DNA from: Haloquadratum walsbyi J07HQW2
GTDB lineage: Archaea > Halobacteriota > Halobacteria > Halobacteriales > Haloferacaceae
DNA length: 55,090 nt
Reading direction: 5' to 3'
Assembly (NCBI RefSeq): GCF_000415985.1
Contig: NZ_KE356561.1
Span: forward strand, 797,641-852,730
Position numbers and translations under genes: made by a program. Position 1 is the first letter of the stretch. Every line of letters begins with the position of its first letter. Below the pieces are notes generated by a model, which made no database searches, was not told the origin of the DNA, and was given only the letters and a program-made list of their open reading frames with translations. This document shows positions 13,183 through 55,026 of this stretch, in pieces.

Positions 13183-13451
13183 TGTTGTATTAGTCTAATG
13201 TAGTCAATATATGATTGGAACCGCACAGACCGCAGAAAAGCGGTGAAATAAGAGACGAGTATTGACTCTAGTATCACACTTCCGCAATCCCAAGCCGTCA
13301 AAATACGGCGAGTCAGACTTGCGGCCGTGCTGTTCCCAACATAGTTAGCGGTTGAGTATATTAAAAACATTGCGACCGATACCTGTGGAAAATACTAATG
13401 TATGAGTCGAAGGGCTTAATATCGTAATTAGGCTAGCTATATTTAGCATGT

Positions 13452-32549: not shown

Positions 32550-32728
32550 GGGGTCGTGGCCAAGCCCGGTATGGCGACTGACTCCAGAGGCAGACCGCCC
32601 GGTGACGATACTCCAGACTGATATACCGAGCGATCAACTGATCATTGATCGCAGTGACGACCCTCTGGGGTACCGAGGCGCGAACCGGAGATATCAGTCG
32701 ATCGGGGGTTCAAATCCCTCCGACCCCA
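32550..32728 (+). tRNA. tRNA-Trp (anticodon CCA) with 105-base intron
   Basis: Exons are about 32550-32587 and 32693-32728. Acceptor GGGGTCG pairs with CGACCCC and the discriminator is A. The anticodon arm is ACTGA-CTCCAGA-TCAGT once the intron is removed between positions 37 and 38. CCAGAGG...CCTCTGG around the splice sites can form the bulge-helix-bulge cut by archaeal splicing endonuclease. T arm: GGGGG-TTCAAAT-CCCTC. Haloferax has an intron of similar length at this site. Confidence 0.95.
32588..32692 (+). ncRNA. tRNA-Trp intron with box C/D-like guide RNA elements
   Basis: The intron contains two exact GTGACGA elements (C/C'-like) near 32601 and 32654, and two CTGA elements (D/D'-like) near 32619 and 32637. 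In Haloferax volcanii the matching intron guides 2'-O-methylation of C34 and U39 of tRNA-Trp itself. The same role is expected here; I did not map the guide pairing base by base. Confidence 0.65.
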
Positions 32729-51606: not shown

Positions 51607-51900
51607 CTATTCGAATCCGTCAAATGAGATTTCGATGTATGACCCCTCCCAATCTGCCCTCGCATCAATTTCTCGTTGCCCCCGTCGGGTAAGCGTGTAG
51701 TAGTTCGTTCGTCGATCAAGTTCTCCTTTATCAATCAGCCCTTTGTCGACAAGTGTATCAAGATTTGGATATAGACGCCCGTGATGAATTTCTTTTTCAT
51801 AATAACTTTCAAGTTCGTCTTTTATTGCAAGTCCGTGTGGTTTCTCCAAACCAGCGATCACATATAATAAATCACGCTGAAATCCTGTCAAGTCATACAT
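51607..51900 (-). CDS. PadR-family transcriptional regulator
   Basis: A protein of 97 residues. The winged helix is typical: MYDLTGFQRDLLYVIAGLEK (first helices), HGLAIKDELESYYEKEIHHG, RLYPNLDTLVDKGLIDKGEL (recognition helix region) and RRTNYYTLTRRGQREIDARA (wing). Archaeal PadR-type proteins repress drug- or stress-response genes. The nearest possible target is its own promoter or the permease that ends 86 bases upstream of its own stop codon (convergent), so no target is evident. Confidence 0.92.
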   Translation of the reverse strand: MYDLTGFQRDLLYVIAGLEKPHGLAIKDELESYYEKEIHHGRLYPNLDTLVDKGLIDKGELDRRTNYYTLTRRGQREIDARADWEGSYIEISFDGFE

Positions 51901-52771
51901 CGTCGAACTATTGTTATGTTAGTATGCAATAAAATAAACATGTCGAATGAACTTGAATAACGGAGCGCTACTGTTTGGTATAGACAAATGCTGAGGCTTA
52001 GCATTTATACTTGTTTTTATTATATCAAATAACAGATAGCACTTACTTCAACGTTCTTATATTTTCTGCATCAAACATCAGTATACTAACATTTATGATA
52101 GTGTTTTGCGAATTCCACATCTATACCTCAATCATATCTGTTGTATATATAATGTAGTGGATTCGAGTAAAACTGTGGTGGCGAAACGTATAGAAGATAT
52201 ATTCTGACCACCGACATTGGGCCGGAAGGTAGCTCATCGGATCTATATTACATACAAAAGCACAGGTATTCTCTCATATATTTCTGCAGTCATTAACATA
52301 AACAGCGGCAGTGACATCTGGAAGATTATGTCATCGGTAAAAGCGGGAAGCGACCCGCGCAAATTACGCGGGCGCTCACCGCTCTAAATTGGTCCCCGCT
52401 GACGCTTCGGCCCTCCAAAGCGAAGCGTCATGTGCAAAACTTAGTGGTAGAGATTTAATACTGTCGCCTGTTCGTATATATGGTATAATTGCCTCTACGA
52501 ATACGGAAAATAAAATAAATGATGTTGGATCTGATGGTACCATTCTCGACGGTCGAAGATCTTACACTCCGTGTTTTGATATTATCTCTGCAGTGGAGTT
52601 GTGAACCGACTTGAGGTCAAGCCCCGTGGCATTCGCCGTGTCCGCTCGTAAAAAGCTCAAAATTCGCATTGTGGTATGCCAGAATGGATGCATACATCCG
52701 ACATCAGTATATAAGTAATACTACATATTTTCACGACGCGCTTTTGTTTGTTGGAAGTCGAAAATTCAAAC
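51901..52771. other. Long AT-rich non-coding stretch containing a GC-rich hairpin locus
   Basis: About 870 bases without a confident gene. Nearly all is AT-rich except 52320-52440, which is GC-rich and forms two strong hairpins (see that entry). A frame from TTG 52389 to 52604 (71 codons) is not accepted because it starts inside the second hairpin's neighbourhood and has no recognisable motif. Confidence 0.5.
52325..52440. ncRNA. Candidate structured RNA or cis element, two strong hairpins
   Basis: Hairpin 1 (52342-52383): AGCGG outer stem with CCGCT; inner AGCG-a-CCCGCG with CGCGGGCGCT around a CAAATTA loop. Hairpin 2 (52400-52430): TGACGCTTCG pairs perfectly with CGAAGCGTCA around an 11-base loop. 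The stretch is much richer in G+C than the 400 bases on either side. Small in-frame peptide: ATG at 52328 gives MSSVKAGSDPRKLRGRSPL and a stop at 52385. Strand and class unknown; it could also be a transposon end of an unrecognised type. Confidence 0.4.
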
Positions 52772-53554
52772 ATGGAGATTCGGGGTCAGCGCCAATGCAG
52801 TGAATGTGGTCAAGAGTGGTCATACTTTGACACAGGACAGGTTGCCTGCCCGGCGTGTGGGAGTCTCAAAAGTGTAGGTCGTGGACAGAGAGAAACGCAT
52901 ACAGACAGTGCTGTTGAATTAGATCTATCGAATCATCAACAAGCACTCGATTCAGAGACTGATATTACTACGATCACAGATGACCTCACCACAACCCTTC
53001 GTGACTACATTCGTCAGCGCGGATTTCTCAATGGTGGAACGTTGCAGGCTCCGGACGAGACGCTGCTTTCAGCGGCTGAGCTACTACATGCAGTTGATGT
53101 ACTTGACCGCCGTCGTCGTCCGACAAATGAGACACGGCTGTATGTGACCAAACTACTTGCCGGTACGGATGACGGCTATCGACCAACTCCAGATTCAGTC
53201 CCAACCTCAATGACAGCTGCGCGCGGACTTGCATATACTGAAATTCTCTCCAGATTTCACCAAGATTTCGGTAAATGGCTTAGTGAGGAATCATCAATAA
53301 TGAGTGTATCTACGGAAGGAACCACAGCAACACGAGATTCTGAACTATCTGTCAGCCAGTTGCGTGAGCGGTTTAGAACATACCTTACTCGCAGTGAGGC
53401 ATTACAAGGAGACATTCCCGTCGAGACAAGCGAGATATTCCTAACAGTAGCTCGAAAGTTACACGAGGGTGCCGTGAATGATGATATAGATGCGCTTGAA
53501 ATTGCACGGACGAAACTTGATTCAGTACAGTTTGATACATCAGCCACAGAGTGA
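52772..53554 (+). CDS. TFIIB-type zinc-ribbon protein, haloarchaeal (DUF7117-like)
   Basis: A protein of 260 residues from the Met at 52772. It opens with a zinc ribbon MEIRGQRQCSECGQEWSYFD, TGQVACPACGSLKSVGRG (two CxxC pairs). The rest is helical (LRDYIRQRGFLNGGTLQAPD, LLHAVDVLDRRRRP, ARGLAYTEILSRFHQDFGKW). From memory it matches a haloarchaeal family annotated DUF7117. A nucleic-acid or transcription link is plausible, but no function is known. The longer ORF from 52748 adds eight residues and is not preferred. Confidence 0.75.
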   Translation: MEIRGQRQCSECGQEWSYFDTGQVACPACGSLKSVGRGQRETHTDSAVELDLSNHQQALDSETDITTITDDLTTTLRDYIRQRGFLNGGTLQAPDETLLSAAELLHAVDVLDRRRRPTNETRLYVTKLLAGTDDGYRPTPDSVPTSMTAARGLAYTEILSRFHQDFGKWLSEESSIMSVSTEGTTATRDSELSVSQLRERFRTYLTRSEALQGDIPVETSEIFLTVARKLHEGAVNDDIDALEIARTKLDSVQFDTSATE

Positions 53555-53725: not shown

Positions 53726-53795
53726 GTGAACTACCCCACCCTACTCAGCCGCTGACGCGGCTTCCTTGAGGGCGGAGCTTCCTGATTCAACGACG
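53726..53795 (-). repeat. TnpB right-end palindrome (family A)
   Basis: GTGAACTACCCCACCCTACT, then CAGCCGCTGACGCGGCTTCC and TTGAGGGCGGAGCTTCC. The TnpB stop (53741-53743) lies inside it, as in intact elements of this group, where this region also forms the guide-RNA scaffold. Confidence 0.75.
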
Positions 53796-55026
53796 CAACT
53801 TGCATCGACCACGGCGGATGAACCTCCGTCAGTCGACACAGCGGTTGCAGTCTTCACAGGCGTTTCTTCGGGGTGAACCACTCCTCGTTTCTGTAGTCCT
53901 CGTGACAAGACGTTCAAAGCCGCGTTGTAATCTCTGTCCGCTTCAAACCCGCACCCGCACGTCGGACACGAGTATTCTCGAACCCACAACGGTTTGTACA
54001 CACTCGTTCTACACAACGCGCAATCCAATGTTGTATTCTCTGGTTTGACCGTGACCACGTAACACCCGTTCTTCTTCCCGTGGTGTTGCATAATAGAAAT
54101 GAAGTCTCGCCACCCGACCCGACTTCGGCCTTGTTTCGAGCGCTCTGCGGGCTTTCGAGCATCCCTTTCACGTTCAGGTCTTCGAGGAACACCGCCTTGT
54201 AGTGGGTTGTGTAGTAGTATGCGAGTTTGTTCTTGAAGTCCCACTTCTTTTGATTCATCCGAGCGTGGACTTTTGCTATTCGCTGGCGGTGCTTGTCCCA
54301 GTTGTTCGACTCGTACTCTTTACGAGACAATGCTCGTTGCTCACGTTCGAGTCGTCCTCGGTCTTCGAACAAGTCGAGTTGGTCGACGACGAGGCCGGTC
54401 GGATTATGGATATAGTTGAGAACCCCGAGGTCGATACCCACACAGTCGTCCACAGATAGTGATTCGACGGGTGGGTCTTCGGGGTCTTCCACTTCGATGC
54501 AGAACGACGCGCACCACGCACCACTCGCTTCTTTCTTCAGCGTCACCTCTTTGATTTCAGTGTCTTCAAGTACGTCGCGGTGTAAACAGGTTGGGATCCA
54601 TCCTATTTTCGAGAGGTACAGTAATCCACGTCAATCCGAGTCACTCTTATGATCGTGTCTGAAGCCTGATTGGTTGTACGTGAAACTGCGGAATTCTCTC
54701 GGGTTCTTTCAGTTCAACGAGCCAATTTTGTAGCCTTTCGCTTTGAGTTTCCCGAGGTTTTCGATGTTTCGGGCGATGCGCTCTACGTGTGTCTGCAAGA
54801 CTTTCGAGTACACGCCTTGCAAATCTGTCCACCATTGTTTGAGTTCGGGGAGTTCGTCTCGGATTTTGGTGACTCGTTGTTTCACGGTTCCTTCCGAGTC
54901 GTCGAATTGGTTGAATCGGTAAAAGACCGTGTGGTTGCAGGTTTGCCGTACGGTGTTTCGGGTCCAGTCAAGGTTTTCTCGTTGCGCTTCGTTAGCGAAA
55001 AGGCGGAAGTGTGGAGTGTACTCCGT
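53741..55026 (-). pseudogene. tnpB: Nearly full-length TnpB (IS200/IS605 OrfB) with several inactivating lesions
   Basis: A read-through of about 426 codons. All three RuvC acids remain: Asp in VGIDLGVLNY, Glu in VFLEDLNV and Asp in ADRDYNAALNV, plus the zinc finger CALCRTSV...YSCPTC. Lesions: an in-frame TGA at 54709-54711 (LN-stop-KNPREF, Trp in relatives), a second TGA at 54631-54633 (DSD-stop-RGLL, Gly expected), and a perfect 5-bp duplication CCCGA-CCCGA (54113-54122) that shifts the frame. The start position has ACG (55024-55026) where ATG is expected before EYTPHFRLFA. The left end of the element may continue beyond the window. Confidence 0.88.

Follow-up and report, generated by a model that had tools for sequence, protein, structure and literature searches.

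What maintains two strong hairpins in a stretch of DNA that seems to encode no protein? The window analysed here, 55,090 nucleotides from the genome of Haloquadratum walsbyi J07HQW2, contains a gap of ~870 bases between the end of a PadR-like gene (51900) and the start of a DUF7117 gene (52772) in which, as a first-pass annotation had reported, there is no open reading frame of credible length. The two stems described in that annotation are both present, at 52340–52430 inside the gene-free gap: a perfect 10-bp stem, TGACGCTTCG/CGAAGCGTCA, and a longer, interrupted one that comprises 20 pairs when read on the minus strand. The accompanying claim that GC content jumps sharply relative to both sides is borne out on the left, where an immediate flank at 0.30–0.39 gives way to 0.53 at 52325–52474, but the right-hand side shows less contrast than was claimed, with 0.40 in the immediate flank and 0.49 again further out, at 52550–52699. 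The hairpin region folds better than all 200 of 200 dinucleotide shuffles (z = -3.6 for the plus strand and -4.2 for the minus strand), and for the predicted 93-nt transcript described below the fold z is -4.9.

The best evidence against a chance origin is conservation. When 60 related genomes were searched by blastn, 55 gave matches, one or two apiece and to the same stretch every time, and a covariance model built from the collected copies of the RNA finds it in 289 of 292 genomes drawn from across the haloarchaeal class, with best E-values of ~1e-19 to 1e-32 (the window copy is matched at G000:C1:849975-850071, minus strand, with E 7.9e-26). By this model most genomes carry one copy and most Haloferacaceae two; the window genome has a single copy. 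Outside the class, ~242 genomes of the same phylum gave only two marginal matches, and the RNA is class-wide haloarchaeal. Just three genomes in the class sample (G043, G045 and G058) lack a match; they are small (1.9–2.3 Mb), belong to two families and may hold divergent copies. Three other genomes, G306, G103 and G106, carry six, four and four copies, respectively, as against the usual one or two.

What, then, do the two hairpins belong to? The loci compared here comprise 80 from blastn matches and 118 stretches retrieved with an exact 19-mer from named haloarchaeal genomes, the latter taking in Haloferax, Halorubrum, Haloarcula, Natrialba, Natrinema, Halococcus and Halorussus. In reverse-complement orientation, the parts follow one another in constant order across copies, namely promoter, 5' hairpin, linker, 3' hairpin and U-run (Table 1). 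Judged from this anatomy, both hairpins are the predicted start and end of one minus-strand small RNA gene, and the locus is almost certainly a stand-alone small non-coding RNA gene. A small RNA had been among the candidates put forward in the first-pass annotation; to that suggestion can now be added the strand and the placing of both hairpins in one transcript.

Table 1. Features of the locus and its flanking genes, in window coordinates.
Feature	Position	Strand	Basis or remark
Predicted small RNA gene, ~93 nt	52431..52339	-	Predicted 5' end ~52431; predicted 3' end in U-run, ~52339
BRE/TATA promoter	52453..52466	-	TATA-like TTAAAT at 52458-52453; spacing conserved in 178 distinct copies
5' hairpin, perfect 10-bp stem: UGACGCUUCG / loop CUUUGGAGGGC / CGAAGCGUCA	52400..52430	-	Alignment identity, 50 copies
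Nearly invariant block GACGCTTCG-(2-4 nt)-TGGAGGGCCGAAGCGTCAGCGGGGACC	52391..52429	-	Invariant alignment columns
3' hairpin (interrupted stem), hypervariable, terminator-like	52340..52385	-	Folding z and arm-swap test
U-run (UUUU) after 3' hairpin	52339..52342	-	T-richness at the same place across copies
PadR-type regulator gene	51607..51900	-	Pfam PF03551; co-directional, ~440 nt downstream of the RNA
DUF7117 zinc-ribbon gene	52772..53554	+	Pfam PF23430, E 3.5e-79; divergent from the RNA

On the upstream side, at constant spacing from the 5' hairpin, the 178 distinct copies share the BRE/TATA consensus CG.YA...TTTAAGT, with TT at -27/-26 in 97–99%, A at -25 in 96%, and the C and G of the BRE at -35/-34 in 95% and 88%, respectively. 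The corresponding TATA box of the window copy, TTAAAT on the minus strand, places the predicted start at ~52431. An independent archaeal sRNA gene would be expected to have a BRE/TATA promoter of its own at archaeal spacing, and this locus has one. A bacterial promoter scan was set aside as irrelevant to archaea.

Downstream of the promoter, the 5' hairpin and the single-stranded GCGGGGACC are almost invariant. In an alignment of 50 diverse copies, 48 rows of which are the window and genome regions found by blastn, the 5' stem is unchanged throughout, save for one A-U pair that has become G-U in two copies. The nearly invariant block occurs in just 10 distinct versions among the 178 copies, a count biased by exact-match selection in that part of the set collected with the 19-mer, and the chief change tolerated in the 5' module is in two to four loop bases. 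(Folding the window sequence singly yields an alternative 5' hairpin; the one adopted here is that of the centroid and of the alignment consensus.) Because the core is 38 nt long in 128 copies and 39 nt in 50, any reading frame through it is broken, so that the RNA is not protein-coding; a small protein gene, for which this 38/39-nt core would have to conserve a frame, was rejected. The same fate befalls a 19-codon frame that had been proposed as an attenuation peptide: it overlaps the hypervariable 3' hairpin and is missing in both nearest relatives, one of which has an ATG followed immediately by a stop and the other no ATG.

The two hairpins have been conserved in quite different ways. A search for compensatory changes among aligned haloarchaeal copies, as the earlier annotation had recommended, yields none for the 5' stem, which gains no support from covariation because it does not vary; what is conserved is the sequence itself. 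For the 3' hairpin, pairing has been kept although the sequence has been rewritten. There are 146 distinct 5' arms of this hairpin among the 178 copies, and yet it folds with z < -2 in 98% of them (median -5.2). Since variable lengths and bulges spoil any fixed-register count of its pairs, an arm-swap test was used instead: the two arms of any one copy pair at a mean of -30.3 kcal/mol, versus -17.1 for arms exchanged between copies. At the place of the U-run, 162 of the 178 copies have at least three T per 5-nt window. A hairpin followed by a U-run looks like an intrinsic terminator, and at the level of sequence the gene would accordingly possess, as an independent sRNA gene should, a 3' terminator of its own.

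Could the hairpins nonetheless serve a neighbouring gene in cis? As a leader or attenuator, the RNA would act on the downstream PadR gene or, as had been suggested, on the zinc-ribbon gene at 52772. Both of these neighbours recur: of 209 copies, 121 have a co-directional PadR gene downstream, an arrangement compatible with a cis leader, and 77 have DUF7117 upstream. The RNA and PadR are, however, parted by the terminator-like hairpin and several hundred nucleotides, DUF7117 is divergent, and in other genomes copies lie beside other genes. In Haloferacaceae a second locus (copy B, the window's DUF7117/PadR locus being copy A) adjoins DUF5813 and TrkA genes; its far side is occupied by ribosomal protein S8e and PhoU in Halobellus-like genomes, and by a chemotaxis-type transducer in Haloferax. 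In all eight Haloferax genomes searched there are two full copies, which lie at different loci and have a common core but differing promoters and 3' hairpins. Copies at different loci with different neighbours argue that the RNA is independent of adjoining genes, and we consider a cis-acting role very unlikely. In Halobellus-like genomes (L045–L047, L062–L065 and others), copy B immediately precedes S8e in the same orientation, adjacent to PhoU and phosphate-uptake genes.

Less credible still is that the locus acts as DNA, whether as the end of a mobile element (another proposal of the first-pass annotation) or as a recombination or replication site. A short, highly conserved, intergenic locus might suggest as much, but the window genome has a single copy, synteny is conserved, and a promoter stands at fixed spacing on one side only. 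Multi-copy matches, which had been named as the sign of a mobile element, are not the rule: most families have one copy per genome, with conserved neighbours, and most genomes have one or two. A phage collection gave no match, plasmids gave short haloarchaeal matches only, and the sole match in viral contigs, a 17-mer, falls inside an unrelated ORF and lacks both the promoter and the downstream core.

The best explanation of the locus as a whole, to which we assign a probability of about 0.88, is thus a small RNA gene with its own promoter, its own terminator, and the 5' module as its working part. Transcription in H. walsbyi would proceed along the minus strand from the BRE/TATA promoter and be ended by the hairpin/U-run terminator. 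The working 5' module would consist of the invariant 9–10 bp hairpin, exposing UGGAGGGC in its loop, and then the single strand GCGGGGACCAAUU. The 3' hairpin would need only to fold, which would be why its sequence drifts. A stem that lacks even compensating changes across the class suggests instead that its sequence is recognised by a conserved partner, most probably an RNA-binding protein, and it is for this reason that we prefer a ribonucleoprotein. More tentatively, and at somewhat worse than even odds, the exposed G-rich segments may work on other RNAs in trans, with translation or the control of mRNAs as the probable setting.

Two more specific modes of action can be weighed against what is known of these segments. 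In the first, the RNA would use its GGAGG loop, which resembles a Shine-Dalgarno sequence, to engage the anti-Shine-Dalgarno end of 16S rRNA, tuning ribosomes or leadered mRNAs. GGAGG is indeed invariant and mostly unpaired in predicted folds, and several H. volcanii sRNAs that lack coding potential show ribosome occupancy (PMC12482152). Yet the complementarity between GGAGG and the 16S tail amounts to just 5 bp, the duplex with the tail (-15.3 kcal/mol) is equalled by 30% of shuffles and by 13% of all 17-mers in 16S, and the whole 5' stem is conserved, beyond the need of Shine-Dalgarno pairing; we regard this mode as improbable. Complementarity to the 16S and 23S rRNAs of the window genome includes no perfect run longer than 9 nt that stands out inside them. 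The rRNA genes of that genome yielded one full-length 16S match (2220122-2221594), one partial 16S match of 779 bases (G000:C1:994040-994818) and 23S in five pieces, and its second rRNA operon looks truncated or misassembled.

In the second mode, somewhat less improbable but still unlikely, the RNA would regulate specific mRNAs by base pairing with them through its GCGGGGACCAAUU strand or its loop. The invariance of that segment, largely unpaired in predicted folds, is what such a regulator would display, but three related AT-rich genomes offer the 11-mer no complementary site that is orthologous: in each of these close genomes the 11-nt complement of GCGGGGACCAA occurs exactly at one additional place, every time at an unrelated gene. 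Pairing through short seeds would be compatible with both this result and that for the 16S tail.

Comparison with established RNA classes leaves the predicted RNA gene without a namesake. Neither the window locus nor 12 other loci match Rfam 15 at gathering thresholds, and the best weak match at relaxed thresholds is a nematode snoRNA (E 2.4). An H/ACA guide RNA was rejected, as the RNA ends in CCCGCUUUU, neither hairpin of the window copy is followed by ACA, and there is no Rfam match; a C/D box sRNA was likewise rejected, there being neither a C box (RUGAUGA) nor a D box (CUGA) within 52339–52431 on the minus strand. The literal core sequence is absent from the literature searched, and no description of the RNA family or its anatomy appears in the main texts of the part of the literature covered. 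Elsewhere in the window, the S15-Halobacteria ribosomal protein leader (Rfam RF03143) is found at 13276–13339 on the minus strand, and a tRNA match of 179 bases at 32550–32728 on the plus strand implies a tRNA gene with an intron of ~100 bases. A TnpB/IS605-like gene (53741–54885, minus strand), named by eye from translations, is split over several overlapping frames and apparently frameshift-decayed; this remnant lies ~1.3 kb from the RNA gene.

Gene order, by contrast with these classes, does provide a known relative, the H. volcanii sRNA hts10 (Heyer 2012; Jaschinski 2014, PMC3956466). Also designated HVO_2213s, hts10 is 161 nt long, lies on the forward strand, was detected by RNA sequencing and prediction, and was reported in 18 other haloarchaeal genomes; its deletion, described in 2014, was viable with mild phenotypes (PMC3956466). 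In Haloferax elongans and H. mucosum, copy B follows genes for E1-alpha, TrkA, a small Lrp-like protein (78 aa in H. mucosum) and DUF5813, and is succeeded by the transducer. Given that HVO_2209 is the E1-alpha gene oadhA4 (PMC8305020) and that HVO_2212 is 78 aa long (PMC12850539), DUF5813 should be HVO_2213 and the RNA after it HVO_2213s. The order of the hts10 orthologue group, HVO_2209 (E1-alpha) through HVO_2212 (78 aa) and HVO_2213 to an sRNA on the forward strand, is that of copy B, whose strand also agrees with the direction predicted by ascending HVO numbers. We conclude, from gene order as opposed to sequence comparison, that hts10 is the Haloferax copy B. The window copy differs in occupying the paralogous DUF7117/PadR locus, and the reported 161 nt exceeds the ~100 nt predicted for the RNA here; in the text of PMC3956466 neither a family nor a paralogue, and no invariant core, promoter or terminator, is described for hts10.

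Other haloarchaeal sRNAs bear a looser likeness. Two of them, HVO_2908s and H3.2 (Babski 2011), are enriched in the extracellular vesicles of both H. volcanii and Hbt. salinarum (PMC10927574). Compared by description only, they resemble the present RNA as intergenic sRNAs conserved between these two species, and one of them could be a copy of the family, perhaps copy A. The H. volcanii rancRNA_s194 (PMC6104027) is similar in being a separate intergenic gene of 97 nt but is reported to be confined to that species (PMC3956466, Table 5), unlike the class-wide RNA here. The widely conserved H225.2R is a different RNA, located between HVO_1727 and the 16S gene HVO_1728 (PMC3956466; PMC4983044).

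The description of the locus as undescribed holds, then, insofar as Rfam 15 has no match, and fails insofar as gene order equates one of the Haloferax copies with an sRNA that is known, though uncharacterised: the finding is stronger than had been thought in being an RNA gene conserved across the class, and less new in this one paralogue. Haloarchaeal sRNAs were found in 2014 to be hardly conserved, with 22 of 27 restricted to H. volcanii (PMC3956466); the RNA described here, in contrast, occurs in 99% of the sampled genomes of the class, with a core that is almost fixed, and is missing from Rfam. A speculative reading, to which we give somewhat less credence than to action in trans, is that it is a previously unrecognised class-wide core ncRNA, distributed like SRP or RNase P RNA, with the invariant 5' hairpin as the RNA part of a putative RNP of housekeeping or global regulatory function, and with paralogues masking single deletions. 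Because a second copy is present in every one of the eight Haloferax genomes searched, the hts10 deletion strain probably kept a paralogue, and the presence of two Haloferax copies may explain why the phenotype of the single hts10 deletion was so mild.
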